A DNA stretch of 64,000 nucleotides from Diphasiastrum complanatum (lineage: Eukaryota; Streptophyta; Lycopodiopsida; Lycopodiales; Lycopodiaceae), in assembly GCA_029204225.1 (NCBI GenBank), contig CM055109.1, positions 6,669,982 to 6,733,981 of the forward strand, written 5' to 3'. The notes under the pieces were generated by a model. The model searched no databases, was not told the origin of the DNA, and saw only the letters and a list, made by a program, of their open reading frames with translations. The translations under genes were made by a program, and so were the position numbers. Below are positions 1,332-62,305 of the stretch, piece after piece (position 1 is the first letter of the stretch; every line of letters starts with the position of its first letter).

Positions 1332-1974
1332 TGTGAAGGATTTCAGATCATTCAAGATCCAAGCCATGTCCCTGATCTTTGGTTACAAAAGAAGCAAACC
1401 AACAATCCTGCCAATGTAAAAAAATCAGCATCTACATACAAAATGAGATGCAAACTCTAAGAGGTACTGATCAAACATGAACCAAAACTTAAAAAATGGT
1501 TGATGTCCGTACAATTACAGTACCCTATTGTATTTCACACGTGTGTAATTGAAAATAGCAATAAATGATCATTCTACACATAGAATTGCAAGATAAGATC
1601 ATGAGAGTGCACCAATGAGTAGTAGAACCCAAAGAGGACCATGTATAATGATGAAATGAGAGAGAGAATAGAGAAGATGTGTCTCTCCACGAGTTACATC
1701 CTTTTATAGCAGGTCCAAACCCTATTTGGCCACTTGGCTTTCCCTCCAAAATGTAAACCCTACTATTTTTGGGTCTAGATTCAATGTACCCAAAATTCAA
1801 ATTTGAATCTCTCTCAAAGTTGACTACCAACTTTCCCACACTTTCAAAAAGTGTTTATTGAATGTATTTTAAACTAATATAACTTCAAAAAGTTTATCTC
1901 TAAGTCTAAAATGAGTTTTGGTCTCATATCGACAATTTACCAAAATATGACCAAACTTGTTGAAATCTCTCACA
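1332..1974 (-). repeat. 3' LTR of element A
   Basis: 643 bp beginning TGTGAAGGATTT and ending TCTCACA. It is followed on the right by CTCCCTCTTCAAC, a polypurine tract on the minus strand. The start matches the truncated right copy at 4303 and the LTR start at 22604. It carries the palindromic G-box TTCACACGTGTG near 1534. Confidence 0.8.
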
Positions 1975-1987
1975 CTCCCTCTTCAAC
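1975..1987 (-). promoter_or_regulatory. Polypurine tract of element A
   Basis: On the minus strand this reads GTTGAAGAGGGAG directly before the 3' LTR. It is the plus-strand primer site of LTR retrotransposons. The same tract lies beside the left LTR of element D. Confidence 0.75.
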
Positions 1988-3024
1988 TAGATTTGGCATA
2001 GTTTTAACCATACTACTTTGATCCAACTTTAGAATGATCTCCATCCTAAGTATAGATCTCCTTTCTAAGGTTCTAAAGCATCTTTCATAATTGATATAGA
2101 GAATAGTGTCCAAATTGGATGCTTCAATATTTCTTACATCAATTTTACTCATCAAGATATAACTAGAACATGAAGAACCAAATAGAATGTAAATGAAATG
2201 TTTCTCCATGCTTCAAAATTTGAACTCTCTGGAAAATCACAACAACCAAACAATAAATGTGAGTGATGACCATTTGCTTGCTTGTCTCCTCCAACATTGT
2301 CCTTTCTTGATATGTCTCCACCATAAAACTCCATGAATGAGCCTCCATCTTCATCTTGCCACAAGAAACCATCAAACCTTGGAAATCCATGAGTAGGTGA
2401 GTACATCAATGATGCAAATCCAGCACCACATGACTCCATAAACCAAATAGGTTGCACTAGTCCATCTTCAATATCTACTTGACACAAGAAAATGACCATG
2501 AACTCACTAAAAATTGACAATCCCCAAGTTTTGGCACCAAGTAACTCAACACTTGAGAACTTAGCCATGGACGAGTGACATAATGAATGGCCAATAGCTT
2601 CATTTCCATCAGAAAAACCATCCAAGAATGCTAGTACAACTCCAACATCAAAATGATGCTCACCAATGTACATAGTTTGACCATATCTTGACAATTTGCA
2701 CACATCCACATGAAATTGCTCAAACATGAGATAGAAGAAGTAAAGTAAGCTTGAACAACACTTCCTTGCTGCTCCTTTGATATTTCTTGAGTCTTCAATA
2801 AGCTCCAAAAATAGATCCATAAAATCTTTGCCAAATGACCTTCCTTTGATGCTCTTGACTAGCTCCAAATTGCCACCTTTTCTTTTGTCTTGTTGAAGCC
2901 CTTTGAGACCAACCTCTTGATCTTCCTCTTGGCCATCAGATTCATTGAACAAACTTTGTTTTCCAGATCCATTACTTGATTTTCCAGCATAAAAACCATG
3001 AGATCCACAATAAATGCATTTCAA
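1978..3024 (-). pseudogene. Chimeric C-terminal frame of element A
   Basis: The open frame starts just after a decayed Gag zinc knuckle (CIYCGSHGFY, later Cys lost) and runs about 290 codons; the tail continues in a second frame to about 1978. It aligns in order with the C-terminal half of the 1,030-residue protein of element D. Shared blocks include LVKSIK, DLFL, GAARKC, MESCGA, KIDVRN and MEIILKL. There is no protease, integrase or RT motif. The alignment across LVKSIK to GAARKC has almost no indels although the copies differ strongly, so the ancestor was probably coding here. Function unknown. Confidence 0.65.
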
Positions 3025-3705
3025 CTTAGACTTATCTTTCTTTTTGCCAAAAGAGGAAGTCTCACCTTGATCTTGTCCTTTTGACCAATTGCCTTTGCCT
3101 TGATGAACATAGTCTCCTCTTCATAATGAGATGTCGATGTAGATACACCTCCTCTTGATTGAAGCCTAAACTCCTCATTCACCAAGATCTCTTGCAAATC
3201 TACAATACTTGGCAAAGTCTTTTGAATAGCAAAACTTTGAACAAGATTAGCATGATCATCCAACAAGCCATTAAGTATAACTTGAACAAGTTCTACCTCC
3301 TTAATGCTTTCATCAATACATGCTAACTCATCATTGAATGCTTTAATCCTCAAAACTCTTCCTTCTTTTGCAACTTTGAAAGATTTGCCTTCTTAAAGTC
3401 AACACTCTAGATGTGGACTTGGATTCATAAAGCTTCCCAGGCCTCCAAAGATGATGTGCACTTACCAATCTCCTTGAGAAGCTCATTGGTAACATTCATC
3501 TTAATCATGTGTAGAGATTTCTTTGCTCTCTTTTCATACCTCACTTGATCTTGAGGTGCTTGAGGCCTCTCCCCCACACTTGCAACAATCTCCATCAACT
3601 CATTCATCTCCAATTAGGACTCCATCCTCACCTTCCAAGTAGAATAGTTTATTGAGGTAAGCCTATCATTGCCTTCCAACATGAATCCACCACTTGTAGC
3701 TATGT
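2990..3705 (-). pseudogene. Copia Gag (UBN2-type) remnant of element A
   Basis: Pieces at 3425-3613 and 3021-3353 encode typical plant copia Gag blocks: ALHMIKMNVTNELLKE-like near the N-terminus, and VQVILNGLLDDHANLVQSFA with LPSIVDLQEIL further on. The expected start (ATG GCT ACA in relatives) reads ATA GCT ACA near 3703. There is an in-frame TAA before LEMNELMEIV near 3615, and frame breaks near 3360-3420. Gag would form the particle that packages the RNA. This copy is dead. Confidence 0.85.
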
Positions 3706-4290
3706 TGCAATGACCTGATCATCTTCTTTTAATTTATTCCAATGCACAAAGCACTCTCTTGAATGTCAACAAATTAACTCAAGAAGAAATCACAAAGATA
3801 TGGAACCTCTCAAATCTTGTCTAGCACTTCTAACTAGAAAATCAACACATAGAATAATGAAATCTTGATCAACCTATGATCTATACTCAATCTAATTCTT
3901 AACACTTACTAAGATTGAAACACACTCAAATGAAGTTCTGTAACCTCACAAACTAGATATCCAATCATAATTATGGTTTTGACAAAATCACAAAAAATGA
4001 GAATATCTCAAATTCTACATGCAATTTCTGAAAACTTGATATATCTTCTTGTAGCCTCCAATGAGACCTTCATAATGCAACAAAATTCATCTAATTCTAG
4101 TAAACCAGGTGTGAAATTGGAATTTATCAAGTATATAGCCCTATATTGAGTTTTGACCTACAAAAGATCAATTCTACATATGCAAAAATGCTGATGTCCG
4201 AGTAGAGATCAATCTAGCATGCTCTAGCATTGGTAGCTCCTCCAAATCCTTGCTAAAGATGGCTGATACTTTCATAACCTGAAACACAAT

Positions 4291-7736: not shown

Positions 7737-8391
7737 TGTGAAAATTGTCAACATTTTCTAGCTAGTTTGAGGCCTAAATTGGCAAGTTTTGTACATAGTT
7801 TTGGATCTGACCTTTCACACGTGTGAAAGAGGCCTAGATACTTTATTTTAGTATATATTTTATATTGAAGAAGTCCCAAACTTTAGGACCTTCGAAATGA
7901 CACCAAAATCATGTTATTCGAACATATAGGCCAAAATTGACTATTTTAGGCTACTGGTGCTCTAAAATTGGGTCCTAAGTTTTAGAGAGATGAGAGAGAC
8001 TCATCTCTCTCACCTATATTAGGCTGAAATTCGTGGAGAACAGGTTGGAGAAACTTATTGTATTGTTGAGAGAGATCAATAGATCATTGTCATATTTTCT
8101 TCCTCCATTGAGAGCATTGCTTTGTGTATTGTCTTCAAGCTATTGTGTATGATCTTAGGAGATTTCCAAAAGTGGTATGCTGCTATAGTAAGGCCTGTTT
8201 ACTGTTATTTTTGGCTGCCATCAGTACATTTTATTAGTTTCTTTTGTCTCTTGAATGCTTTGTCAAGTTCATGTGTATCAAAGGTAGCATTAGGATGCTT
8301 TGCCATTTCTAGCTTTTGTAGCTTGTTGTGCAAAGATCTTAGCCAAGTATTTTGGGAGTTTGGATCCATTCAAGATTCACTTTTTTTCACA
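7737..8391 (+). repeat. 5' LTR of element B
   Basis: 655 bp, TGTGAAAATTGTC to TTTTTTCACA. It is recognisably the same LTR as the reverse complement of 51889-52535. It contains the 18-bp palindrome CTTTCACACGTGTGAAAG (7812-7829) and a CT/GA-rich stretch near the likely transcription start. It is followed at once by the primer site. Confidence 0.85.
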
Positions 8392-8403
8392 TGGTATTAG
8401 AGG
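8392..8403 (+). promoter_or_regulatory. tRNA-iMet primer binding site (degenerate)
   Basis: TGGTATTAGAGG abuts the LTR. It differs at two positions from the usual copia site TGGTATCAGAGC. Confidence 0.8.
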
Positions 8404-9539
8404 TAGTTGGCTGATATTTTTAGTAAGATTTTCATTTATGGTGATATTTGGATGTTTGATCAAGTTCTAGCATGATTATGCATTGCACTGTTGATCAAAT
8501 CTTACTAACCTTTGTTTTGTGATTTGAACTTGTGGATCAAAAGCATATTTTAGGTCTATTGAAGATCAGAGGCTGAGAAGAAGCTATTTTGGATCAGATC
8601 ATAACAACTAATCATTTGGTGATTGTGAGGCTTGTGCATATTCAATACTAGCAATGTTCTGTTTAATCTATTGTTGACAATCTCCACTTCTGTGGATGAA
8701 CACTCTCCTTTGTGGATGAAAGATCTCCTTAAGTGGATGAACCTTATCCTTAAATGGATGACAAATACTCTTTGAGTGATTTTGTATTTCTCCAAAAGGC
8801 TAAGCAAAGCTCCCACTTGGATGAAAGATCCCCTTTTGGGTGAACAGATTGTCAGCAATCTTTTGCATAAATTTTGGTGTACTTTGTTGAGCATGTAAGT
8901 AACTCTCCTTATGTAATTTGATTGGAGCATTTTCTAAAAGGTCTTAACCATTATGCAAATGTGTTTTCATATTCTTATCAGGTTGAGGAACATTCTCATG
9001 TGAAGTGATCTTAGATCTACATCTAAACATCAAGATTTGACAAGCTAGTGAAGCTAGTCTTGTGATTCACTAAGTGTGCTCTTTCATATCATTTGCTGGA
9101 GTTTATAAAATTTTAGAGGTGCGGTTTACATGTGGTTTTACAGGTTGAATCAATATCTTAGTGTGTTGATCATATGTTAATCAAGTTTGTTCAATTCTAG
9201 GTATTCTTGGCAGCCTAGTCTTGTGTATTTTCTAAGAATGCAAGTAACTCTTCACATCATAACTTGATTTGGTCACTTGCTGGAAAGTTTGAGAGCTTAA
9301 GCAAGAGTGTGTTCAGGTTGGTTTGAGTTTGTAATCCATTCTTAGTGTGTGCAAAGTGTGTGAAAAGTGTTGCATGTGTTTCAATCTTCCTTCCTATGCT
9401 TGGAAACCAGCCTGGTTCAAGATAGAAGTGTTTTAGGGACCTCGATCTTCTGAGATCTCCTTATCCATCATTTGTTGAGAGGAAAGTGAGTGCTAGGTGC
9501 ATTAGGACAGAGCCTAAAAGTTGAAGAATCATTATATTC
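8404..9539 (+). other. Untranslated leader of element B
   Basis: About 1.1 kb between the primer site and gag. It aligns in reverse with 50717-51876 of element D, including the CTCTGATCTTCAATAGACCT-like part and the repeated GTGGATGAA(A/C) segments around 8700-8830. No coding frame is conserved. Confidence 0.7.
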
Positions 9540-10916
9540 ATGGCTTCCAATGGTAGGATCATGTTAGAAACTAATGATAGGTCAAGTTAATCAAACTACT
9601 CTACTTGGAAAGTGAGGATGGAGTCCTTACTTGAGTTGAATGAACTCATGGACATAGTTGTAGGAACTAAAGAGAGACCACCCACAGTTCAAGAGCAACA
9701 GAGGTTTGATAAGAAGGCTAAAAGGGCTCTTCATATCATTAAAATGAATGTTACCAATGAACTTCTCAAGGAAGTTGGTAAAAGTCAAAGTGCAAGTGAG
9801 GCATGGAATGCCTTGAAGAAGCTCTTTGAATCAAAGTCCACATCTAGGGTATTGACTCTAAGGAGGCAAATGTTTTCTAGTAGGCAAAGAGAGGGTGAAA
9901 GTGCTCATGCATTTGTCTTGAGGGTTAAGTCCTTAAGTGATGATCTAGCATTCATTGATGAAAGCATAAAAGATGGTGAAATAGTCCAGGTCATGTTGAA
10001 TGGTTTGCTAGATGAACATGCTAACCTTGTGCAAAGTTTTGCCATTCAAAGAGTCTTGCCAAGTGTGGTTGACTTGCAAGAAATATTATTGGCTGAAGAA
10101 CATAGGTTGCAATCAAAGCTTGATGGTGCATCCTTGCAAGGTGGAGGTGAAGAGGCTTTTTTCACAAAAGGCAAAGTCAAAGGCAAAAGTAAAGGCAAAG
10201 GGAAATGGTCCAAAGGTGGTAACTCGGATCATGATGATCACTCTTCCTCCTCCTCTTCTAATTCTTTTAGAAAGAAAGATAAGTCAAAGTTCAAGTGCTT
10301 TTATTGTGGGATAAAAGGTCATTTTGCAAATGAATGTCATAAGAAGCAAAGTAATGAAGGTAGCAAGCAAAACAACTTTTGTACTTCTAATGAGGATCTA
10401 GATTCTTGTGATTCTCTCATGATGTGTTCTTCAAGTCTAATGTCAAGTGGAAGTGACAAGGATTCATGGTGGATAGATAGTGGATCTAGTTCACACAAGG
10501 CTAGTCACAAGGAGTTCTTTACTTCTTTGATCTCTTATGTTGGAACCAAGAAAGTGGTTCACATGCCAAATGGCGGTGAGTGTAAGATCAAAGGTATTGG
10601 CTCAATTCCTATTTGCCTTTCTACTAATAGGAATGCAAGGCTTGACGGTGTTCTTTACATTCCTTCACTTTCAAGGAATCTATTAAGTGTTGGTCAAATG
10701 TTAAAGAAAGGGTACAAGACAAAGTTTGTTGGGGACGTTTGCTTCAATACTAAGGGAGATTTCTTGAGTGCTAGGGGAAATAGACAAGGTAGACTTTACA
10801 AGCTTGATGCATTTGTTATGTCTAACAAGAGGAATGAAATGGAAGTTGGTGGTTCTCTCAAATTTCAAAAGTCAATTCCTAGCATCAATAAGATTGGTAG
10901 ATCTTATGCAAAGTAA
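9540..10916 (+). pseudogene. Copia Gag-protease of element B
   Basis: The true start is the ATG at 9540 (ATGGCTTCCAATGG, as in element D). Codon 17 is TAA (9588-9590), so the visible open frame begins 24 codons later at 9612. Order: UBN2-type Gag (MIKMNVTNELLKEVGKSQ, VLTLRRQMF, VMLNGLLDEHANLVQSFA), a basic linker, zinc knuckle CFYCGIKGHFANEC (about 10303-10344), then an aspartic protease with WWIDSGSSSH (DSG catalytic triad) and the flap-like LDGVLYIPSLSRNLLSVGQM. The frame stops after GRSYAK, just before the conserved ARSRLRSN junction. The protease would cut Gag, and element D lacks it. One nonsense codon early, otherwise well preserved. Confidence 0.9.
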
Positions 10917-11515
10917 AGAGCTTTCTTATGCTAGATCTAGGTTGAGATCTAATAAGCTTCTTGGAGATAGTTATTGTTGTGCTAACTTGACAACTTTTGG
11001 TGAATCTATGATCAATGTTTTGGATCCATTGGATCTTGAAGATGGACTAGTGCTACCTACTAGTCAAATGGAGTCATGTGGTGCTAAATTAGTATCATGT
11101 TTGAACTCTTCTACTCATAGATTTCCAAGTCTTGGTGGCTCTTCAATGGAACTACATGGCAAGTGCAAAAATGGAAAAGGTAAAAAGAGAGCTAACTTTA
11201 TCAATGGAGGTGATGAAAGTCTTCTTTGGAAATGGTTGTTGCTAACGACTTATTTACTCATTTGAAAAAAGATGGTGCTTTGAGCATGTTTGAAGAAAAA
11301 GGTCCTTCTGGATCTTTATGTGATGAGTCCAAGAAAGTCATTTGTGCAACAAGTGGTGTCACATGTATCCATTAAGAAAGTAGATCAAAAGGTTCTATCA
11401 TGAGACTTGGTGAGGAAGGTCTCAAATCAAAAGGGAGAGATGAATGTGAAGTGTTCAAAGTAGGATGTATCTTGAATGATGCTTTTGTGAATGATAGTGA
11501 GGGTTCATTGATTTA
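10768..11515 (+). pseudogene. Shared non-Pol frame of element B (broken)
   Basis: After a frame change near 10913 the segment SYARSRLRSNKLLGDSYCC, MESCGAKL, GKCKNGKGK and FINGGDE follows. It matches residues about 267-390 of the element D protein. Later pieces (FKVGCILNDAFVND near 11453) match its middle part. Several frameshifts and stops separate them. The sequence leaves the family near 11515. Function unknown. Confidence 0.7.
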
Positions 11516-11554
11516 CCAACATTTTAAATTTTTCATTTATAAGACTACATGCCA

Positions 11555-14147: not shown

Positions 14148-14270
<123 letters not shown>

Positions 14271-15625: not shown

Positions 15626-16149
15626 GGAGTCTTAATGACTGCATCATAAGTAGAAACCTCAAAAACATTAGAAGCCATGAAAAAATTGATCAGTACCTTC
15701 AACATAAGGATGATTGAAGTACTCTCTTTTCTCAAACAAGAACTTCTACTCAATGTTTTAGGTAATGAATCATATGATAATGATTCTTCCTCACTATCAT
15801 TCACAATGACATCATTCAAAGTACATCCTACTTTGAACTCTTCACATACTTTTCTTCTTCTTGACTTGTGACTATCTCCCTCACCAAGTCTCTTGATAGA
15901 ACCATTTGATCTACTCTCTTTATGAAGACATGTGATCCCACTTGTTGAAAAAATGACTTTCTTGGATTCATCACAAAAGAATGTAGAAGAACCACCTCCT
16001 TCATGCATGCACCTAGCAACATCTTTTTCCATATGATCAAAAAAATCATTAGCAACAACATTTTTTAAGGAAGAAACTTCACCACCTCCATTGATGAAAT
16101 TATATCTTTCCTTACATTTTGCATGCTTGCACTTGCCATGAAGAACCAT
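15613..16149 (-). pseudogene. Shared non-Pol frame of element C
   Basis: Open for 178 codons: GKCKHAKCKER, FINGGGE, VVANDFFDHMEKD, then FKVGCTLNDVIVNDSEEES and SYDSLPKTLSRSSCL. These match residues about 350-560 of the element D protein with few indels. The frame is offset from the upstream protease frame near 16149. It is cut on the left at the copia protease fragment. Product unknown. Confidence 0.7.
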
Positions 16150-16888
16150 TGAAAAATATCCTCATAACTAGCCAAGTTAGCACAAAGATGAACATCTCCA
16201 AGAAGCATATTAGATCTTGACCTAGATCTAGCATAAGGAAGCTTTTTAGAATTTGCAGAAGATCCACCAATCTTAATGATGCTAAAAGGGAACTTTGGAA
16301 AGTTGAGACCAATCTCCTTTTCCATTCCATCCTTTTTGTTAGCCATAACAAAAGCATCAAGCTTGAAAAGTCTACCTTGTCTACTGCCCCTAGCAACCAA
16401 GATCTCTTCCTTTGTAATAAAACAAACATCACCACCAAACTTTACCATGTATCGTTTCTCTATCATTTGCCCAACACTCAACAAATTCTTTGAAAGTGAA
16501 GGAATGTAAAGAACACCATCAAGTCTTGTTTTCCTATTAGTAGAGAGACAAATAGGAATTGAACCAAAACCTTCAATCACACACTCACCACCATCGGCCA
16601 TGTGAATTTCTTTCTTGGCTCCATCATAAGTGACCAAAGAAGTAAAGAACTCCTTCTGACTAATCATGTGTGAACTAGCTCCAATATCAATCCACCATGA
16701 ATCTTTGTCACCTTCACTTGATATTAGACTTGAAGAACACATCAAAAGAGAATGACCACCACCTAAGTTGATTTGCTTGCTACCTTCGACTCTTTGCTTC
16801 TTCAAACATTCATTAGCAAAATGCCCTTTGATTTCACAATAAAAGCATTTCAACTTAGACTTAGCTTTTTTTTGCCAAAAGAGGAAGT
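16065..16888 (-). pseudogene. Zinc knuckle and altered protease of element C
   Basis: CFYCEIKGHFANEC knuckle, then WWIDIGASSHMISQKEF where the catalytic Asp-Ser/Thr-Gly of copia proteases reads Asp-Ile-Gly. Next come LDGVLYIPSLSKNLLSVGQM and RGSRQGRLFKLDAFVMANK, then LPYARSRSRSNMLLGD, the boundary to the non-Pol frame. The Ile in the triad would be expected to impair activity. The upstream Gag part is cut off at 16888. Confidence 0.8.
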
Positions 16889-16891
16889 CTT

Positions 16892-21103: not shown

Positions 21104-21991
21104 TCAGCAAGCATACATGAAGACATCACAAAGCATCATCATTTGCATCTTGATCATCCAAACTATCATCATCAAGAGTAAGATTATCTTGCTTGTCTCC
21201 TTGATCTCTCTTTTTCTTGTAGCACTCACTTGAAAACTGTCCTTTGATGCCACAATAGAAGCACTTGATCTTTGATCTATCTTTCTATTTTCCATTTGAA
21301 GAAGCCTCCTTTTGACCTTGTCCTTTAGACCACTTACCTTTGCCTTTTCCCTTGAATTTGCCCTTGATGAACATAGCCTCCTCTCCAACTTGAGATGTTG
21401 ATGAAGATCCACCTCTTGCTTGAAGCCTATATTCTTCATTGATCAAGATCTCTTGAAGATCAGTCAAACTTGACAAAGTCTTTTGAATAGCAAGACTTTT
21501 AACAATGTTAGCATGAGTATCCAACAATCCATTAAGAATAACTTGAACAAGGTCCCATTCCTTCATGCTCTCATTAATGCAAGCTAACTCATCATTCAAT
21601 GCTTTCACTCTCAAATAAAAGTATTTGGACTTTCTTTACTCTTTTGCAAACAAGAAAAGATTTTTCTTCTTAGAATCAACACTCTAGAAGTAGACTTGGA
21701 CTCATAAAGCTTCTTCAAAGCTTCCTAGGCCTCACTTGATGAAGTACTCTTGCCAACTTCCTTGAAAAGCTCATTGGTAACATTCATCTTTATCATGTGT
21801 AGAGCCTTCTTGGCCCTCTTGTCATGCCTCAATTGATCTTGTTGTATTGCTAGCCTCTCCTCCAAACCTACAACAATATCCAAAACATCATTCATCTCAA
21901 GAAGTGATTCCATCCTCACTTTCCATAATGAATAGTTATTTGAGGTAAGCCTATCATTGGCTTCCAACATGACTCCACTTGATGTAGCCAT
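21104..21991 (-). pseudogene. Copia Gag
   Basis: Start ATG at 21991 (MATSSGVMLEANDRL). MIKMNVTNELFKEVGKS, VQVILNGLLDTHANIVKSLA and LSSLTDLQEIL are the usual UBN2 blocks. A lysine/glycine-rich linker (GKFKGKGKGKWSKGQG) and the zinc knuckle follow. Frame breaks occur near 21615-21725 and 21290. It would encode the particle protein. Confidence 0.88.
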
Positions 21992-36708: not shown

Positions 36709-36758
36709 GTAGTTAATCTTGATTTCCATATTCAATCACCCATAATAGACTCATTCAC

Positions 36759-36762
<4 letters not shown>

Positions 36763-36854
<92 letters not shown>
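36763..36854 (+). repeat. (GA)n microsatellite
   Basis: About 46 perfect GA units. A smaller GA run lies at 37200-37222 and a GT-rich run at about 37105-37150. Confidence 0.97.
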
Positions 36855-36856
<2 letters not shown>

Positions 36857-38469
36857 ATGAAAGAGTTAAAGGTAACCAACACTCCCAATTCTAGGAAGGT
36901 GTGTAGCCCTTGTTTTCTTCCGTTAAAGACGTGGTTCAAATGTTTTTTGTTGGAAGATGAGTTCCACAAAAAAGCCCAAACGCCGCAGGGAGGGAGCATG
37001 TGGTCACATTCTAGAGTAGGATATAATCGTGTGGTTTGGGAGTTTTGATTAGCACTCTATAATGTTCCCTCTGTTTTTCTCTTCATGTGTGTTTAGGGTC
37101 GGTGTGGGTGGGTGTGTGTGTGTGCGTGTGTGTGTTTGTGTGTGTGTTTCATGCTACTGGTTTACAGTTTGTGTTATATATTAATTTATGTTTCATGCTT
37201 GAGAGAGAGAGAGAGAGAGAGATACATCTAACATTTTCAACTTTTGCAGAAGAAGGACCATAAGTCGGTTTCAAGAAAAAGAGTTGCAAGAGAGATCGAG
37301 AATATTATTGATAGGATAAATTACATGAATATTGATTTTGGATCATCATTGGCCCTAGATGATGCTCTTGTTGATGATGACCCCTTGCATGATATGATTA
37401 GTTCATCAATGCCTTGTGATTCAATCCATGTCTCCAAATCTGTAGAACGTTCTTACCACCCAACCACACCTATCCTAGATGTTGCACATGAGTCCTGCAT
37501 GATACTCCACGTGGATTCCACAAACTTGACCACCCCTTTAAAAAAGAGAACACGTCTTGGACGTATTATGACTAGTTTGAAAGATAATTGCAAATTACTT
37601 CGCACTGTTGATGTGTCAAAAGACATTCTAGGTCCTTTGTCTGACCTTCCTCTTCCACCTAGATTGCAACCATTAGTAAAAACTTTTATTAGAAGTAGAT
37701 ATTCGTGTTGGCCACTCCAATCACCATTACCATTAAATGGAACACCATTTACGTATTGGGGTCGAACGTACATGATCATGCCTAGTGAACACTTTCTTGA
37801 GGCTGGTTTGGGCCTTTTTGCATTGAGTAGTATTGAGGTCCCTTTAAATAGCGTTGTGACATTGATGATATATGCAAGACCTCAATACAATTGGGGTGAT
37901 TGACATGCTTTGTGTCATCACCAATGGAGGATGCAAGTATATGGCTTGAATTCAAATGCTTGTTCTTTAGAGGAGCAACGCATGCAAGGAGGCAACATCT
38001 CAAGGACAAATCGTACATACATTGATGGACGTCCAGATGTGCATGGGAACATTGCTGCATATATAAATAGTTCCATTGGCCACCCTCTATTGACGAATTG
38101 TGATTTTGAAGAATGCACCAATGGAAAAGAAGAATATTTTACTAGGAATGTAAAGGGCACTTATGTAATGGTCTGTGCCACTAGATCTATCAGGTTTGGG
38201 GAGGAATTGTTCATCAAGTATAGTTTCAACCATCCTCTACCCAAATGTTTGCAAAAGACAATAAATCAAATGTGAAGATTTAAATTTTGTTGATATGTAG
38301 AGATGTATAATCCATGCATCTTGATTGTATTTGGTTTGTGTCATTAAATATGTCAAATGTTAGGAGCATTATTCGTCATTTGTCTAGATTGAATGTTAGG
38401 AGCATTATTCGTCTTTGAGTTCATTGAATGTTAACGAGTTGAAAAGACAAATCTGTCTAATAGATACAT

Positions 38470-44808: not shown

Positions 44809-45161
44809 TGTCGCAGAAGCGTAAAACTGTTGGGTTCGGTTTCGCGAAGGCGAAACTGATCCGTTTTCGTTTTTGCGAACAATTTTGTGTCTTTGAATTT
44901 TCTTTTGCGCGGAAGTTTTTAAAGGGACCTAGACACTCGACTGCACATCACAGAACACATTTTATTCTAGCAATAAAGACAGACAACACAAGACAAAGAG
45001 ATGCACGAAAATAGAGCGACTGTATTATCAGTTTAATTTTTAGAACGAGATCATCAGTGTCTCGCTCGTTGGCAGTCTAATGCTGTACTCTTTCACTGTG
45101 TTCTACTCGTTGGCAGACTTTCATGCACAACTATAGTATTTTTCTTTTCTGCTCTACTCAC

Positions 45162-45239
<78 letters not shown>

Positions 45240-45689: not shown

Positions 45690-46961
45690 TTGCAGCTTTG
45701 TACATTTAATCCAGTTGCCTCTCTTTGCTTGGCAAAGAGTGTCTTGTCGAGCGGTTTCGTGAGCAGATCTGCAATCATGTCTTCAGATTTTATATACTGG
45801 ACCTGGAGCTCTCCTTTGAGATCAAATCTCGAATGTGATGGTAGTTTAGAGGTACGTGCTTTGTCTTTGAATGGAATACACTCTGAGAGTCCATCATCAT
45901 CGTGCTTGGCCCTTCTTGTGATATCTCGATTGCCTCCAACATCTGCAGCCACACTACGTCATTCGCCACCTTTGAAACTGCGTCATATTCAGCTTCGCAA
46001 GAGGATTGAGCCACCAAAATTTGCTTTTTGCATATCCAGCTGATTGCAGCTCCGCACGCTATAGTACATCCTCCAGTAATGGATTGTTTTCATCTTTGCA
46101 GCTCGCCCAGTTTGCATCACTGTAGTGATGCAGCTCGAATCTTTTTTTTTTTCGTTTTCAGTTCTGTAGGTTAATCCCATATTCTGGGTACCCTTCAGAT
46201 ACTGTAGGATTCGTTTGGCCATTTGCCAATGTGTCAGGCCAAGATTGAAAGAGAATTGGCTCAAGGCGTAAACAGAAAAAGCCAGATCGGGTCTAGTAAA
46301 AATTGTGAGGTACATCAGACTACCGATTAAGTTTTGGTAGGGTATACCTGCCATCTTCTATTCTTCCTCTTTCATTTTTGGACAATCCTGCTTCGTGAGC
46401 TTGGCTCCAACTATCATTGGTGTGGCCTTGCCTTTGCAGTCCATCATGTGGTACTGCTTTAGCACTTTTCTGGCATATTCTGACTGACTCAAGTGCATAG
46501 TGCTCTTTGTTCGATCTCTTCTGATCTCTAGCCCAAGGCATTTCGTTGCTTCTCCAAGATCTGTGATTTCGTAGCTTTCAGAAATCTGACTCTTCGTGTC
46601 TTTGATCTGCATCAAGGAATTTTCTATCATCAATGAATCATCCACGAAAATGGTCAGTATCACAAAATCCTTTCCTACTCTTTTGATGTAGACTTTGCAG
46701 TCTGGTTGAGTAGGATTGAAGTCTAGAGACTTCAGAAGACCATCAAGCTTTTTATACCAGACTCGTGATGCTTGTTTTAGACCATAGATGCATCTCTACA
46801 ACCGACAAATATATTGTCGATTGTCGGGGTCTTCATAGCCTTCAGGCTGCTTCATGAAGATTTCCTCCTCTAGATCTCCGTGGAGAAAGGCTATTTTCAC
46901 ATCAATCTGGTGAATTTCCAGATTGTGTTGTGTGGCGTATGCAAGGAGTAGTCTTATGCTT
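45690..46961 (-). pseudogene. Copia RT (C-terminal) and RNase H
   Basis: RT part: FVILTIFVDDSLMIENS (FVDD catalytic pair kept), ISESYEITDLGEATKCLGLE, STMHLSQSEYARKVLKQYHM, PYQNLIGSLMYLTIFTRPDL. RNase H part: VAQSSCEAEYDAVSKVANDV (with catalytic Glu and Asp), MDSQSVFHSKTKHVPLNYHH, SEDMIADLLTKPLDKTLF. An LYGLKQA-type block is read near 46770. Several frameshifts, and one stop between KEEE and MAGIPYQ near 46357. Confidence 0.9.
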
Positions 46962-47610
46962 TGTGAAAAATACAGATCCTAAGTGGATCTAAACTCCAAG
47001 ATCATTGGCTTGAATGCTTGCACTCCAAACTACATAAGCTAGGAATTGGCAACACATTCTATGCTACCTAGAATGCAAAGAACTTGATCAAAAAGCATTT
47101 ATCACAAATGGAAACTTCCATAAACATCAAGTGCGGCCCAAAATAGCATTATACAGTCCATAATACATCAGCCTACCACTTTTGGAAAGCACCTAAGATC
47201 ATACACACAAAGCTTGAACTCAATCACTACACAATGCCAACAATGGAAGGAGAACCCAATAGAAAAATCTCTCATTAAGCAAATGAATACAATGGATCTG
47301 CTCCAACCTGTTTCTCCACGGCCTACCTGCTATATATAGCTGAGAGAGATGACTCTCTCTCTCCTCTCTCTAGACCCTCCTTACCTAAAATATGCCCTAT
47401 ATAGGTAAAATTGGCATATATGTCCAAAATACATGAAAATGGACTCATTTCGAAGGTCTTGAAGTTTGAAACTTCTTCATACTGAAAAAATACACTTACT
47501 AAAAATATCTAGACCTGTTTCACACGTGTGAAAAGTCAGATCCTAAACTATGTGCCATTTTTAGCAATTTTGGCCTAAAACTAGACAAGGAAATGTTGAC
47601 AATTTTCACA
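46962..47610 (-). repeat. 3' LTR of element D
   Basis: 649 bp, TGTGAAAAATAC to AATTTTCACA. It contains TTTCACACGTGTGAAA (47518-47533) and, on the minus strand, a GCTATATATAGC box near 47330, likely the TATA element. Confidence 0.95.
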
Positions 47611-47622
47611 CTCCCTCTTCAA
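47611..47622 (-). promoter_or_regulatory. Polypurine tract of element D
   Basis: TTGAAGAGGGAG on the minus strand, touching the 3' LTR. Confidence 0.85.
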
Positions 47623-47623
47623 C

Positions 47624-50600
47624 TTAACTTGCTAGTTTTACAACACTACTTTGTTCCAACTTAAGAATGATCTCCATCATCAGAATAGATCTCTTCTCAA
47701 GGATCCTAATATGTACAAAATAGGACACAACATAATTGATATAGATAATAGTGTCCATATAGGATGCTTCACTATTTCTTACATCAATTTTACATAGAAT
47801 CATAAAAATGGTACATGTAAAAGAACATAGAATCTCAATTAATGAATTCCTCCATGTATCCATCTCTGGTTTCTCTGTAAAATAGCAGCAAACAAGTTGT
47901 AAATGAAAGTGATCAACAAGTGTTTGCATGCCTCCTCCACATTTCACTATACATATAGTGAATGCAACATGTATCTCCATGAATGAACTTCCATCACCAC
48001 CTTGCCTTTGTAGATCTTCAATCCATGAAAGCCTTTGAGTGAATGAATGCCAAAAAGATGTGTTCCCTACTCCATTTGAATGACCAAAACCTGAACTTGA
48101 AATACTTGAAGTACCTCCACAAGATTTGCACACAACGCTTGATCCTACAATGTCAACAAGTTGCCAATTTGCCAACACTAGAATACTAGATCTTGAACTT
48201 TGTTCAAAAGAAAACATATTGACCACTTCAATACCTTTCAAGATCTGAATGAATTCATGTACTTGATCATACAAACCAGCAATGATAACTATTCCATCTC
48301 CAAGATCCAAAGGATGCAAAACTATGGAACTAGTTTTATTGAAATTTGACAATTTCAACACATTGACATAACAATGTTCATACATGAGATTAGGCAAGTG
48401 AGGTAGAGTAAGAAGACACTTCCTTGCAGCTCCAAAGACCTTACTTGAACCTTCAAGAACCTGTAAAAACAGATCCAAAATGCCTTGACCATTTGTCTCT
48501 TCTTTGATGCTTTTCACTAGCTTCGAATTGCCACTTGTCTCTTGGTGTTGATGAAGCAATCCAAGATCAACCTCTTGATCTTCCAATAAGACATCAAAGA
48601 TCTTGCATATGTGAACATCTTCAGATCTGAAACTCTGAAGATACTCCCTCTCAAACACATGATTAAGATCCCACAAGATCTCATCAATGCTCAAATTTGA
48701 CCCTTCACTATAGTTAGTGAAAACAATGCCACCATCATAAACCAAAAGATAGATTCCAACATTTCCATTTAACATGAAGTAGAGTAGGTGAAGATGAGTA
48801 TCAAACCTAATCAAAACAGCCCTCTTGAGTTCATAACAAACCTCAATAAGCTCACCAATGATATCTCCCTTGCCTTGAAGAAGTTGCCACTTGAGTTGCT
48901 CCATGTAGTCTTCTTCAACCAACCTTTTGCCATTTTGACCATGAATGAACAATCCACCACAATCATAGAATGCTTTGAGTTGATGAAGAGATGTTAGATC
49001 CATGCTTTGGATCTTCCCAAGAACCACTCTTCCATTGCCCTTTCCTTCACAAGACTCCCTCTTAATGCTAGCACCACAAAAGTTAGAAACCTCCCTCTTG
49101 ATAGTTGCACCATAAGAAGTAGAAGACTCTTGAATATTAGAAGCCAAGAAAAGAATCCTTAGTACCTTCAACATAAGAGTGATTGAAGTACTCTCTCTTT
49201 TCAAACATGAACTTCTACTCAATGATTTAGGTAATGAGTCATATGATAATGATTCTTCCTCACTATCGTTCATAAAAACATCATTCAAAGTACATCCTAC
49301 TTTGAACACTTCACATACTTCTCTTCCTTTTGACTTGTGATCTCCCTCACCAAGTCTCATGATAGAAACCTTTGATCTACTCTTTTTATGAAGAAATGTG
49401 ACACCACTTGTTGCACAAATGACTTTATCACAAAAAGATGTAAAAGAACCATTTCCTTCAAGCATGCTCAAAGCACCATCATCTTTTCCCACATGATTAC
49501 ATACATCAATATGAAAAGAATTAGAAGAACAACCATCTTCTTGCAAAGAATGACACTTAGCATCTCCATCTTTTTCCATATGAACAAACAAGTCATTAGC
49601 AACAATCACTTCCAAAGAAGAATCTTCATCAACTCCATTGATGAAGTTAGCTCCTTCCTTACCTTTTCCATTTTTGCACTTGCCATCTAGCACCATTGAA
49701 GAACCACCAAGCCTTGGAAGTCCATGAGTAGAAGAGTACAAACATGATGCTAATTTAGCTCCACATGACTCCATATGACTAGTAGGTAACACTAGTGCAT
49801 CTTCAAGATCCAATGGATCCAAAAAATTGACCATAGATTCACCAAAGCTTGCCAAGTTAGCACAACAATTATCATCTCCAAGAAGTACATTAGATCTCAA
49901 CCTAGATCTAGCATTTTGTTTCTTATGGCATTCATTTGCAAAATGTCCTTTTATCCCACAATAAAAGCACTTGAACTTTGACTTATTGTTCTTAGTAGAA
50001 GAGGAAGAGGAAGAGTGATCATCATGATCAAAGTTACCACCTTTGGACCATTTCCCTTTGCCTTTACCTTTGCCCTTGAATTTGCCTTTTGTGAAGAAAG
50101 CCTCTTCACTTCCACCTTGCAAGGATGCACCATCAAGCTTTGATTGCAACCTATGTTCTTCAGCCAATAAGATTTCTTGCAAGTCAACCACACTTGGCAA
50201 GGCTCTTTGAATGGCAAAACTTTGCACAAGGTTAGCATGTTCATTTAGCAAACCATTCAACATAACTTGGACTATTTCACCATCTTTTATGTTCTCATCA
50301 ATGCATGCTAAATCATCACTTAGGGACTTAACTCTCAAGATAAATGCATGAGCACTTTCACCCTCTCTTTGCCTACTAGAAAATATTTGTCTCCTTAGGG
50401 TCAATACCCTAGATGTGGACTTTGATTCAAAGAGCTTCTTTAAGGCATTCCATGCCTCACTTGCACTTTGACACTTTCCAACTTCCTTGAGAAGTTCATT
50501 TGTAACATTCATTTTAATGATATGAAGAGCCCTTTTGGCCTTCTTATCAAACCTTTGTTGCTCTTGAAGTGTGAGAGGTCTCTCTTCAATTTCTGCAACT

Positions 50601-50716
50601 ATGTCCATGAGTTCATTCAACTCAAGTAAGGACTCCATCCTCACTTTCCAAGTAGAGTAGTTTGATGAACTCAACCTTTCACTAGACTCTAGCATGATCC
50701 CACCATTGGAAGCCAT
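47624..50716 (-). CDS. Gag fused to long non-Pol region (1,030 aa)
   Basis: Uninterrupted frame from MASNGGIMLESSERL to VVKLAS. Residues 1 to about 210: UBN2-type Gag (MIKMNVTNELLKEVGKCQ, VLTLRRQIFSSRQREGES, VMLNGLLNEHANLVQSFA, LPSVVDLQEILLAEEHR). About 215-248: Lys/Gly linker and Ser run. 250-263: zinc knuckle CFYCGIKGHFANEC. After KKQ the frame jumps to NARSRLRSN, precisely skipping the protease present in element B. Residues 267-1030 are not Pol: DLEDALVLPTSHMESCGAKL, FKVGCTLNDVFMNDSEEES, GAARKC, KIDVRNSEASYMDT. A segment at about 650-720 (VCYELKRA, LNGNVGIYLLVYDGGIVFTN) looks like copia RT around the YVDD box with the aspartates gone, so part may be transformed RT. The frame ends 3 bp from the polypurine tract. 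Start chosen by match to relatives. Role unknown beyond Gag. Confidence 0.85.
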   Translation of the reverse strand: MASNGGIMLESSERLSSSNYSTWKVRMESLLELNELMDIVAEIEERPLTLQEQQRFDKKAKRALHIIKMNVTNELLKEVGKCQSASEAWNALKKLFESKSTSRVLTLRRQIFSSRQREGESAHAFILRVKSLSDDLACIDENIKDGEIVQVMLNGLLNEHANLVQSFAIQRALPSVVDLQEILLAEEHRLQSKLDGASLQGGSEEAFFTKGKFKGKGKGKGKWSKGGNFDHDDHSSSSSSTKNNKSKFKCFYCGIKGHFANECHKKQNARSRLRSNVLLGDDNCCANLASFGESMVNFLDPLDLEDALVLPTSHMESCGAKLASCLYSSTHGLPRLGGSSMVLDGKCKNGKGKEGANFINGVDEDSSLEVIVANDLFVHMEKDGDAKCHSLQEDGCSSNSFHIDVCNHVGKDDGALSMLEGNGSFTSFCDKVICATSGVTFLHKKSRSKVSIMRLGEGDHKSKGREVCEVFKVGCTLNDVFMNDSEEESLSYDSLPKSLSRSSCLKRESTSITLMLKVLRILFLASNIQESSTSYGATIKREVSNFCGASIKRESCEGKGNGRVVLGKIQSMDLTSLHQLKAFYDCGGLFIHGQNGKRLVEEDYMEQLKWQLLQGKGDIIGELIEVCYELKRAVLIRFDTHLHLLYFMLNGNVGIYLLVYDGGIVFTNYSEGSNLSIDEILWDLNHVFEREYLQSFRSEDVHICKIFDVLLEDQEVDLGLLHQHQETSGNSKLVKSIKEETNGQGILDLFLQVLEGSSKVFGAARKCLLTLPHLPNLMYEHCYVNVLKLSNFNKTSSIVLHPLDLGDGIVIIAGLYDQVHEFIQILKGIEVVNMFSFEQSSRSSILVLANWQLVDIVGSSVVCKSCGGTSSISSSGFGHSNGVGNTSFWHSFTQRLSWIEDLQRQGGDGSSFMEIHVAFTICIVKCGGGMQTLVDHFHLQLVCCYFTEKPEMDTWRNSLIEILCSFTCTIFMILCKIDVRNSEASYMDTIIYINYVVSYFVHIRILEKRSILMMEIILKLEQSSVVKLAS

Positions 50717-51876
50717 GATTCTAATGTTTCTTCAACTTTTAGGTTCTGTCCTAAAGCACTTAGCACTCACTTTTCTCTCAACAAATGATAGATAAAGAGA
50801 TCTATGAAGATTTAGGACCCTAAAACACTTCTATCTTGAACCTAGATGGTTTCCAAGCATAGAAAGGAAGATTGAAACACATGCAACACTTTGCACACAC
50901 TAAGAATGGATTACAAAATCAAACCAACCTGAACACACTCTTGCTTAAGCTCTCAAACTTTCCAGCAAGTGACCAAATCAAGTTATGGTGTGAAGAGTTA
51001 CTTGCATTCTTAGAAAATACCCAAAACTAGGATGCCAAAATTACCTAGTAATGAACAAACTTGATCAACATATGATCACCACACCAAGATATTGATTCAA
51101 CCTGTAAAACCACATGTAAACCACACTTCTAAAAGTTTATAAACTCCAGCAAGTGATAAATACAAGATTTAGAGGTGAATGAATGAGCACACTTAGTGAA
51201 TCACAAGACTAGCTTCACTATCTTGTCAAAATTTGGTGTTTAGATGTAGATCTAAGATCACTTCACATGAGAATGTTCCTCAACCTGTTAAGAACCTGAA
51301 AACACACTTGCATAATGGTTAACACCTTCCAGCAAATTCTCCAATCAAATTACATAAGGAGAGTTACTTACATGCTCAACAAAGTACACCAAAAATTATG
51401 CCAAAATTGATGACAATCTTTACAATATGCTCTTCACAATGGAGCTTACAATATGTTCACCCAAAAAAGAGGATCTTTCATCCAAATGGGAGCTTTGCTC
51501 AGCCTTTAGGAGAATTACAACTCACTCAAAAGAGCATTTGTCATCCACTTAAGGAGAAGTTTCATCCACTTAAGGAGAGTGTTCATCCAAGAATGGAGAT
51601 TGTCAACAATAGGATTGAAAAGAACATTGTTAGTATTGAATATGCACAAGCCTCACAATCACAAATGATTAGGTGTTATGATCTGATCCAAAATAGTTTC
51701 TTTTCAGCCTCTGATCTTCAATAGACCTGAAATATGCTTTTGATCCACAAGTTCAACTCACAAAACAAAGGTTAGTAAGATTTGATCAACAAAGCAATGC
51801 AAAATCATGCTAGAACTTGATCAAACATCCAAATATCACCAAAAATGGAATACTTACTGTAAATAGAAGCCAACCA
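50717..51876 (-). other. Untranslated leader of element D
   Basis: 1.16 kb between primer site and Gag start, alignable with 8404-9539. Direct repeats TCATCCACTTAAGGAGA(A/G) near 51541-51580. No conserved frame; the plus-strand open frame 51398-51724 is chance. Confidence 0.8.
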
Positions 51877-51888
51877 GCTCTGATACCA
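51877..51888 (-). promoter_or_regulatory. tRNA-iMet primer binding site of element D
   Basis: Plus strand GCTCTGATACCA, minus strand TGGTATCAGAGC, exact copia site touching the 5' LTR. Confidence 0.95.
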
Positions 51889-52535
51889 TGTGAAAAATAC
51901 AGATCCTAAGTGGATCTAAACTCCAAGATCATTGGCTTGAATGCTTGCACTCCAAACTACATAAGCTAGGAATTGGCAACACATTCTATGCTACCTAGAA
52001 TGCAAAGAACTTGATCAAAAAGCATTTATCACAAATGGAAACTTCCATAAACATCAAGTGCGGCCCAAAATAGCATTATACAGTCCATAATACATCAGCC
52101 TACCACTTTTGGAAAGCACCTAAGATCATACACACAAAGCTTGAACTCAATCACTACACAATGCCAACAATGGAAGGAGAACCCAATAGAAAAATCTCTC
52201 ATTAAGCAAATGAATACAATGGATCTGCTCCAACCTGTTTCTCCACGGCCTACCTGCTATATATAGCTGAGAGAGATGACTCTCTCTCCTCTCTCTAGAC
52301 CCTCCTTACCTAAAATATGCCCTATATAGGTAAAATTGGCATATATGTCCAAAATACATGAAAATGGACTCATTTCGAAGGTCTTGAAGTTTGACACTTC
52401 TTCATACTGAAAAAATACACTTACTAAAAATATCTAGACCTGTTTCACACGTGTGAAAAGTCAGATCCTAAACTATGTGCCATTTTTAGCAATTTTGGCC
52501 TAAAACTAGACAAGGAAATGTTGACAATTTTCACA
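51889..52535 (-). repeat. 5' LTR of element D
   Basis: 647 bp, nearly identical to 46962-47610. TTTCACACGTGTGAAA at 52443-52458. Confidence 0.95.
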
Positions 52536-52540
52536 TGCTT

Positions 52541-53960
52541 GTCATCTTGACCATGGGTGAATATGTGTTGAAATAATCAACACCATATCTCTATGTGTAG
52601 CCCTTCACGACAAGCCTTGCTTTGTAGCAGCCAATGGTACCATCTAATTTCATCTTTTTCTTATACACCCACTTGCAGTCGACTATTTTTCTATTTTTTG
52701 AAGTGGCTTTAATGCCCATGCCTCATTTAGCCTCATCGACTCGATCTCCTCTGACATTGCCTGCTTCCAGAATTCTCCCTATGGACTCTAGATAGCTTCT
52801 TGGTATGTTGCTGGCTCTTCAGTGAAGCTGCAGTAATCGAACTGCGTGTCTTCTCTCCATTGAAGATTGTCAGAGTAGCAGTCTGGAGGTCTTCTTTGTC
52901 TCGTTGACCTTCTAGGTTCGTTTCGTCGCTGTTCAAACGTTTCTTGTTCGTGGGGTTGATCTTTCGCTTCCTGCTACTTTGGAGTCTGTGGCTCTGCATT
53001 CGGATTTGATGTCTGTCCTCGATCTCCCTCTTGAATGGGCAGCAGTGTGAAGATCTCATGGCCTCTTTCGTCTTTCAGTCTAGGGAATGTGGACTCATCG
53101 AACTTCACATCTCTGCTCGAAACAACCTTCTTCATGGTTGGGTTGTAGAGCCTGTACACATGTGTTCTGTTCGAGAGCCGACCATGATTGTTTGTTTAGA
53201 TTTGTCATCAAGCTTGTTTCTTTTTTCTTTTGGAATGTGCTTGTATGCTGCACATCCAAACACTCGTACGCATGACAGATCAGGCTTTCTGCCTGTCCAC
53301 ATTTCGTATGGTATTTTGTTTTCCAATGCTGTCGTTGTAGCTCTGTTCTGCAGGTGTACAGTTGCAGCTATTGCCTCAGCCCAGAATTGACCTGGCAATT
53401 GAGTCTGTGCCATCATGCATCTGGCTCCTTCGACTAGTGTTCTGTTTCTTCTTTCTGCAACACCATTGTATTCTGGTGTGTATGCAGAGTGAACTGGTGT
53501 TCGATCCCCTATTCTTCATAGAATTTTGAGAATTCTTTGTTGTTGTACTCACCTCCATTGTCAGATCTAAGGATCTGTATCTTTTTCGAGGTGTGTCGCT
53601 CTGCAAATGCCACAAAGTTCTTGAAGGAATCAAACACTTTGGATTTCTTCCTTAAGTAGTAGATCGTGGTCATCCGGATGTAATCATCTATGAACGTCAG
53701 AAAGTATCTTGAACCTGAGAGCAATCTGTCTTCATCGGTCCATAGACATCAGAGTGAACGAGTTCAAGAACTTCCTTGGCTATTCTCCTCTCATGCATGA
53801 ATGGATTTCGATGTTGCTTGCCTTTTTGACAGGCTTCGCAGAAGTCAGTTTCGACTCTTGAAATCTTGAGAGCTGTGACTACGTGTTTTCTGCTCATGTC
53901 ACACAAGCTCCGCATGTTCAGATGATACATTCTCCTATGCCAAAGCTGATCTTCATTTTT
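52541..53960 (-). pseudogene. Copia integrase and RT start of the host element
   Basis: Integrase pieces on the minus strand: ETDFCEACQKGKQHRNPF (zinc-binding end, near 53830), ELVHSDVYGPM, YFLTFIDDYIRMTTIYYL (first Asp), ILRSDNGGEYNNKEF (second Asp, near 53560). The Glu block is broken by frameshifts near 53440-53520. ATVHLQNRATTTALENKIPY, KPDLSCVRVFGCAAYKHIPK and VVSSRDVKFDEST follow. RT begins near 52720 and continues at 46961 once element D is removed. Confidence 0.88.

Positions 53961-56596: not shown

Positions 56597-56685
<89 letters not shown>
56597..56685 (+). repeat. Compound (GT)n(GA)n microsatellite
   Basis: About 14 GT units followed by about 30 GA units. Minus-strand open frame of Leu-Ser and His-Thr repeats is an artefact. 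Confidence 0.97.
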
Positions 56686-56689
<4 letters not shown>

Positions 56690-61723: not shown

Positions 61724-62305
61724 TAATGTTTCATGGGCACGTTTCGAACGTCGTTTCATACGCGTTTCGAAACGTCTGGTTCAGGTTCGAAACGGGAATT
61801 TTTTTTTAGGTTTTTTTTTTTTTTTTGAAAATGTGTTTTTGAGGGTTTACAGATGTCATAGAAAGTCTAGTAACAAGTAGATACATCCAATTTCATGAGA
61901 ATGCTCTAGAGAATGCAATTTCAAGAGAAGCTGTGTATGGTGACTATGGTCACTTTCCTCAATCAATTATTATACTGTCATGGATAGGTTATTAGGTTGC
62001 GAGAATCTGTTCATGCCCATTGCCAGCACATACTACAAAGCTTATGGCGCGGTTTTTGGGGTTTACAGATGTCATAGACAGTCTAGTAACAAGTAGATAC
62101 ATCCAATTTCATGAGAATGCTCTAGAGAAATTGGAATGCAATTTCAAGAGGAGAAGCTGTGTATGGTGATTATGGTCACTTTCCTCGGTCAATTATTGAA
62201 AGTATTGATACTGTCATGGATAGGTTATTAGGTTGCGAGAATCTGTTCATGCCCATTGCTAGTACATACTACAAAGCTTATGGCGCGGTTTTAGAAAAAA
62301 AAATT

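Follow-up and report, generated by a model that had tools for sequence, protein, structure and literature searches.

How does a retrotransposon that encodes none of the enzymes of its own transposition come to form a large young family, and why does it carry some 760 open codons behind Gag? The locus that raises these questions is element D, which lies on the minus strand at positions 46962-52535 of a 64,000-nucleotide stretch of Diphasiastrum complanatum DNA (the window; GenBank assembly GCA_029204225.1, contig CM055109.1, 6,669,982 to 6,733,981 of the forward strand). Large plant genomes are known to contain Gag-only elements whose additional part has no explanation. Here a single genome holds such an element in a young state, its older subfamilies, and a helper that has its leader and its Gag, which makes the role of the extra frame testable. 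The reading that we favour, with confidence somewhat above even, is that D is a young, cross-mobilised 'semi-autonomous' Ty1-copia mosaic, and that its frame beyond Gag, here called X, is selected for openness, most likely as a spacer that avoids nonsense-mediated decay (NMD). Below, C and E denote older subfamilies that also contain X, and L-numbers denote extracted genomic stretches or copies.

Structure of element D and its family

Element D is a structurally complete copia-type long terminal repeat (LTR) element. Its features, with 5' and 3' given in the sense of the element and nucleotides of the open reading frame (ORF) counted from its start, are as follows:

46957..46961, target-site duplication TGCTT (plus strand), one side, read by eye
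46962..47610, minus, 3' LTR, 649 bp
47611..47620, minus, polypurine tract (PPT) GAAGAGGGAG, abutting the 3' LTR, read by eye
47624..50716, minus, single open frame Gag-X, 1,030 codons, its stop codon 13 nt from the 3' LTR
47627..49912, minus, X, codons 269-1030, no known domain
49919..50716, minus, Gag, codons 1-266, Pfam Retrotran_gag_2 plus zinc knuckle
49928..49972, minus, CCHC zinc knuckle, codons 249-263, in the region of the joint between D and the helper (ORF nt 727-771) and near the alternative-Gag joints
49947..52134, minus, tract common to D and its autonomous partner: tail of the LTR, the leader, and Gag as far as ORF nt 770
50717..51876, minus, leader
51877..51888, minus, primer binding site (PBS) TGGTATCAGAGC, abutting the 5' LTR, read by eye
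51889..52535, minus, 5' LTR, 647 bp, TGTGAAAA...TTTTTCACA
52536..52540, target-site duplication TGCTT (plus strand; AAGCA in the sense of the element), other side, read by eye

With its TG..CA ends, 5-bp duplication, PBS, PPT and copia-type Gag, D belongs to the Ty1-copia LTR elements; the copia Pol order of protease (PR), integrase (INT), reverse transcriptase (RT) and RNase H (RH) is absent from D itself and present in a partner with the same leader and Gag. A preliminary description of the locus, made from its letters, had reported intact ends, and reading the sequence agreed with it (TGCTT, primer site, polypurine tract). It had also put the two LTRs at one substitution and one CT unit apart, and their alignment gave exactly this, the unit being a 2-bp AG in the sense of the element (CT on the plus strand). 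The primer binding site, which we take to be complementary to the initiator-Met tRNA, has identical letters in D, in the E copy L030 and in the single helper LTR compared. When the D ORF was searched against Pfam, Retrotran_gag_2 was found at residues 27-192 (3.8e-23), with DUF4219 and one zf-CCHC (residues 249-263, E 0.0035) below their own cut-offs; no PR, INT, RT or RH was found, and nothing past codon 266. The earlier claims that D encodes none of these enzymes, and that Pol is replaced by about 760 codons open to the PPT and without a recognisable domain, are thus upheld by the ORF itself and by the Pfam, NCBIfam and PDB searches. D is nested in another minus-strand copia element, of which RVT_2 (46358-46663) and SH3_retrovirus (53132-53416) were seen on either side.

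D is a member of a large young family and was recently inserted, as the preliminary description had supposed. With X as a query against the 1.74 Gb genome of the same plant, all 40 matches that were scored, out of 4,249 first-look candidates, were about 100% identical over the full 2,286 bases (D included). Twenty sister copies (L009-L028) were drawn from the best of these matches, 19 of them with two full LTRs. In those 19 the median LTR distance was one substitution (none in three copies), an exact 5-bp duplication was present in 16, and the element length was 5,554-5,576 bp. The frame was open to its end in 19 of the 20, L025 being frameshifted; as these copies were picked by their similarity in X, a near-identical open X among them is no evidence of selection. 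Capture of host sequence in this copy only was rejected, in line with the earlier description, since X was full length in every scored match and is also found in C and E. Two of the 19, L009 and L014, share the duplication GTTAC and the same difference counts to D on two contigs, and are probably one insertion assembled twice.

An autonomous partner and a mosaic origin

With the leader of D (50720-51870) as a query, all 40 scored matches, of 886 candidates, were 99-100% identical (D included). The stretches downstream of four leader matches were followed. One of them (L043) was a Gag-X element with one frameshift, and the other three (L044, L045 and L046, mutually 99% identical over 3.1 kb) continued from the same Gag into Pol. 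L045 had an open frame of 1,042 codons that reached the end of its stretch, and in this one frame Pfam found gag, zf-CCHC, Pol_BBD, gag_pre-integrs, rve, SH3 and RVT_2; the frames of L044 and L046 were interrupted. The adjoining stretch L048 continues the frame of L045 to a stop at the LTR edge, and in it an RNase H was read by eye, for which Pfam gave no match. The helper formed by L045 and L048 is flanked by a GTATC duplication. The same genome thus contains an autonomous partner with the PBS, LTR ends and leader of D, seen in three of the four leader-found copies, with LTR and PBS taken from one.

The comparison of D with this partner revealed that D is a mosaic: the tail of its LTR, its leader and its Gag are of the helper type, whereas the front of its LTR and X differ from the helper. 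Over ORF nt 1-770 there was no fixed difference between 17 D-type copies (D included) and the three autonomous ones; fixed differences then followed at nt 771, 789, 790, 799 and 803, where the comparison ended. At the other joint, the first ~400 bp of the LTR were diverged from the one helper LTR compared, and the shared tail, from LTR index 401 on, contained a single mismatch, at 52103. The leaders of the two were 99% identical. That the Gag of D is the Gag of an autonomous partner, and that the element is a recombinant, had been missed in the preliminary description.

Strong-stop transfer and template switching are established mechanisms of retroelements generally, and a single strong-stop transfer between RNAs packaged together, combined with a single switch of template, would produce the structure of D. 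In such a course, the RNAs of D and of the helper would be co-packaged in one particle, the minus-strand strong-stop DNA of the helper (R-U5) would transfer to the 3' end of D, X would be copied, and synthesis would then return to the helper template at the zinc knuckle. The latest exchange may have run from helper to D or the reverse. The recombination joints are sequence evidence of helper and dependent RNAs meeting in one particle. The recombinant structure also suggests that D is mobilised by the enzymes of its partner: the helper would supply RT, RNase H, integrase and protease, and the common R-U5, PBS, leader and Gag would keep D packageable.

Gag is a swappable module in this family. 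Five of the 20 sister copies carry an alternative Gag that is 77% identical to that of D (synonymous divergence dS 1.07; w, the ratio of nonsynonymous to synonymous divergence or dN/dS, 0.13) and keep the LTR, most of the leader and the X of D. The first difference stands at leader index 1682, 137 nt 5' of the ATG, and the last one at ORF nt 597 in L016, 765 in L018 and 750 in the other three copies. With the alternative Gag as a query, all 40 scored matches were 100% identical, and the two that were followed downstream both led into X.

Openness and residues of the X frame

X is present in at least three subfamilies (C, D and E), and no relatives outside these were found in the searches made. 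In C (copies L032-L042) and E (L029-L031), X follows Gag, the zinc knuckle and a Pol_BBD protease region. The E copy L030, about 5.49 kb long, has identical LTRs and one frame of 1,195 aa; the frames of L029 and L031 are interrupted. The LTRs of D and E had no similarity by blastn, and their leaders little. The segment of X at D codons ~288-339 corresponds to L030 4602-4759, near the opposite end of X in E, with both frames open and a gap marking it in the D-E protein alignments, and dS between D and E was 1.5 in Gag and only 0.15 in X codons 361-712. By this displacement and this contrast in dS, X has been rearranged or exchanged.

X contains no in-frame stop ahead of its own terminator, where 500 simulations under a first-order Markov model of X gave 50 stops on average and never fewer than 32; the preliminary description had likewise expected a neutral filler to collect stops. 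Stops are depleted among the X variants shared between copies: the C-majority codons contain none against 9.8 expected (P 5e-5), and the shared changes of E contain no real stop, codon contexts having been checked, against 19.2 expected. Private changes in C gave five stops against 18.5 expected (P 2e-4), and individual old C copies do carry X stops and frameshifts. Frameshifts, too, are probably depleted among shared variants. Ten of 39 private X indels were in multiples of three, and so were six of seven shared ones when a -2/-1 pair was counted as one event (p=0.005) or four of five when alternative placements were also merged (p=0.03). In D, L030, the helper and the C copy L034 alike, the frame terminates at the PPT or the LTR edge.

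These data bear on two rival explanations. The first is that X is plain filler, open merely through the youth of D; its nonsynonymous to synonymous (N/S) differences are indeed at expectation (see below) and two X stops are each common to two C copies, but stops are depleted between subfamilies hundreds of differences apart, and we give this explanation almost no credence. Secondly, X might be selected as RNA, for instance as a packaging, dimerisation or template-switch signal, with the open frame being incidental. C and D are less diverged in X (9.8% shared differences) than in the LTRs (72.6% identity, one C copy), which would suit such a role; however, this contrast may come from recombination, and the depletion of in-frame stops would be left unexplained, so that an RNA role appears very unlikely.

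If openness is maintained, the question becomes whether the residues of X are maintained as well. N/S expectations were derived from the observed mutation spectrum, as the counting method of Nei and Gojobori (NG86) ignores transition bias; for C and E, a further count took only differences common to at least two copies, to avoid selecting intact copies; and for the 12 C copies, codons present in fewer than four of them were excluded, which retained 738 of the 762 X codons. Between D and E, w was 0.14 in Gag and 0.87 in X (confidence interval 0.71-1.09; 0.81 with local alignment), and the spectrum-corrected N/S over expectation was 0.35 and 0.99, respectively. For shared differences the same measure was 0.39 in Gag versus 1.21 in X against C, and 0.31 versus 1.18 against E. 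Gag and X differed strongly (p=0.0004 in C, 2.7e-12 in E), with X itself showing no difference from neutrality (p 0.27 and 0.25). A McDonald-Kreitman test of X between D and the 12 C copies gave fixed counts of 160.5:49.5 and polymorphic counts of 311.5:96.5 (p=1); the fixed changes had an N/S of 1.11 of expectation and a mean BLOSUM score of -0.41 versus -0.34 expected. D-E replacements in Gag, in comparison, were strongly conservative (0.82 versus -0.27 expected). Gag is under constraint, and there seems to be no clear purifying or positive selection on the amino acids of X.

Database searches with X found no domain and no relative. X alone had a top Pfam match of E 0.49; NCBIfam gave no match for the X of D and one far under cut-off for that of the E subfamily; PDB sequences gave no match; and in a database of 5.8 billion proteins, none of the 5,476 candidates that shared words with X reached E<=1e-3. 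The E frame as a homology query matched 10 copia-like polyproteins over 19-38% of its length, presumably in its Gag/PR part. Degenerate Pol was rejected as a source of X by the lack of similarity in Pfam, PDB and the protein database; a few residues alike at the very end (KLAS) were seen by eye. Structure prediction with single-sequence AlphaFold was uninformative either way (predicted local distance difference test score, pLDDT, 31.7). The position-specific base composition of X, with G at 0.31 in codon position 1 compared to 0.17 in a simulated stop-free neutral equilibrium, indicates that X probably descends from true coding sequence.

Such an ancestry would suit a real accessory protein, very fast-evolving under relaxed or diversifying selection, acting for example against a host factor or modifying particles, whose openness would be ordinary coding constraint. 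The open frame, w above 1 in three of 10 D-E windows and the slightly conservative private C and D-E replacements speak for such a protein. On the other hand, the McDonald-Kreitman test contained neither excess nor deficit of replacements, the fixed D-C replacements were not conservative, X showed only mild dips (w 0.5-0.7) with no strongly constrained block, and no domain or relative was found in Pfam, NCBIfam, PDB or the protein database; we consider an accessory protein unlikely. The preliminary description had seen in D a non-autonomous element supplying its own Gag plus an extra protein. Its young, mobile-looking, non-autonomous and Gag-carrying character stands, but the neutral N/S and the non-conservative fixed changes do not sustain X as a protein whose sequence matters. 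It had also held that dN/dS near 1 in the C-terminal region and stops in most copies would speak against its reading: the residues do evolve at such a rate, but shared stops are depleted.

Selection would then act only on unbroken translation between Gag and the PPT. With a stop directly after Gag, the 3' untranslated region (3'UTR) would exceed 2.3 kb; plant surveillance by NMD would tend to remove such an RNA, and X may serve as a sequence-free spacer that keeps the Gag message and genomic RNA alive. Promotion of NMD by long 3'UTRs is described in the consulted part of a plant-virus study, which for plants refers to Kertesz 2006 (PMC6277124). The available part of a report on Rous sarcoma virus offers a parallel, in that its full-length RNA also serves as the Gag message and has a long 3'UTR exposed to NMD; the virus protects this RNA by an element that follows the gag stop codon (PMC5580461), whereas D would instead avoid an early stop. 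By keeping the frame open, D may evade RNA surveillance. The stricter claim, that a frame of about 760 codons is selected for openness alone as a 'translation shield', its residues drifting neutrally and its stops and frameshifts being removed by selection, which would spare the RNA that serves as Gag message and as genome a long 3'UTR and let it escape surveillance, is one that we put forward tentatively and hold at a little less than even.

The same openness data would fit translation through X that is needed on grounds unrelated to NMD: the passage of ribosomes could clear structure or keep off small-RNA machinery, a bulky C-terminal Gag tail could tune particle assembly as a mock Gag-Pol, or a minimum genome length could be required. 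In favour of such grounds, the measured lengths vary little: the 19 D-type copies span 5,554-5,576 bp, and the E copy L030 has about 5.49 kb. Against them, the PR region kept in C and E was lost in D without loss of success; we place them on the improbable side.

Several observations weigh against selection on openness alone or against its link to NMD. Private C replacements in X were slightly conservative (-0.14 versus -0.35, z 2.0), as were D-E replacements in X (z 1.6), and there may be weak constraint on X amino acids. The PR region that C and E retain shows only weak constraint of its own (observed/expected 0.80, core 0.64). Private C variants are also short of stops and are therefore not a clean neutral control. 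Counted raw, five of eight shared X indels were in threes (p=0.09), so the strength of this result depends on the counting. Openness is not absolute: stops are shared by L032 and L033 at codon 529 and by L035 and L038 at codon 610, and one -4 indel is common to two copies. Two stop-like codons were also present among fixed C-E codons in the poorly aligned back part of X (E coordinates); we take them for misalignment because the C-majority codons in D coordinates hold none. Since the Gag of D is that of the helper, its constraint need not arise in Gag-X elements. Finally, the TR-GAG elements described below are reported to have a single GAG ORF, so X is not required by every Gag-only element.

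Comparison with known elements and other features of the window

Non-autonomous wheat elements that combine GAG with an unknown domain, have an autonomous partner and carry divergent, recombined GAGs are already in print, according to the parts consulted of two reports (PMC11302176, PMC9744471). In the first, the RLG_Quinta/RLG_Cereba system of wheat centromeres resembles D in a non-autonomous element with one ORF consisting of GAG and an unknown domain (DUF1), and in an autonomous partner with matching PBS and LTR ends; RLG_Quinta, like the D family, has divergent GAG between otherwise alike elements, and template switching was proposed (PMC11302176). Unlike D, these are Gypsy (RLG) elements, and the GAG of the partners barely aligns in DNA, whereas that of D and its helper is identical (PMC11302176). 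By the authors' own account there is no hint of a role for DUF1, and the sections available contained no statement on selection on it (PMC11302176). If X is indeed selected for openness alone, the 'DUF' tails found in further Gag-only elements, that of RLG_Quinta for one, might be of this nature too.

RLG_Sabrina_SA, called 'semi-autonomous', is similar to C and E in having GAG and protease with RT/INT missing, a high copy number and a cooperating autonomous family; it differs in being Gypsy, and the portion seen of its description mentions no passenger frame of the size of X (PMC9744471). TR-GAG elements, as far as the excerpts consulted describe them, share with D two LTRs and GAG, or GAG plus aspartic protease (AP), as the sole retrotransposon domain; for one Arabidopsis copia member with an ORF of 562 aa, transposition was reported, and that genome also contains a similar element that is potentially autonomous (PMC6022998, PMC8704663, PMC9784723). 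Their single ORF is GAG only, and D, whose ORF runs on for about 760 codons as X, was not filed as a TR-GAG for this reason. A retrotransposon frame kept open with neutral residues was not found in the open-licence literature by title and abstract start, which is weak evidence of absence.

Relatives of D elsewhere in the window are degraded:

1958..3774, minus, degraded member near subfamily E: Gag and C-terminal X
7737..11552, plus, degraded subfamily C member: LTR, leader, Gag, Pol_BBD (PR region) and start of X
15631..16890, minus, degraded Gag-PR-X fragment: zinc knuckle, Pol_BBD and start of X
21210..21991, minus, fragment of a Gag from the same superfamily, which may be the 5' part of the copy at 15631-16890

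Apart from these, an open 261-aa integrase/SH3 fragment of another copia element lies at 26351-27136 on the plus strand. The same short-unit repeat tract recurs at 14150-14266, 36758-36865, 45141-45238 and 56622-56688, at least once in opposite orientation, and a tandem duplication with a unit of ~220-240 bp, 89% identical, occupies 61835-62292.

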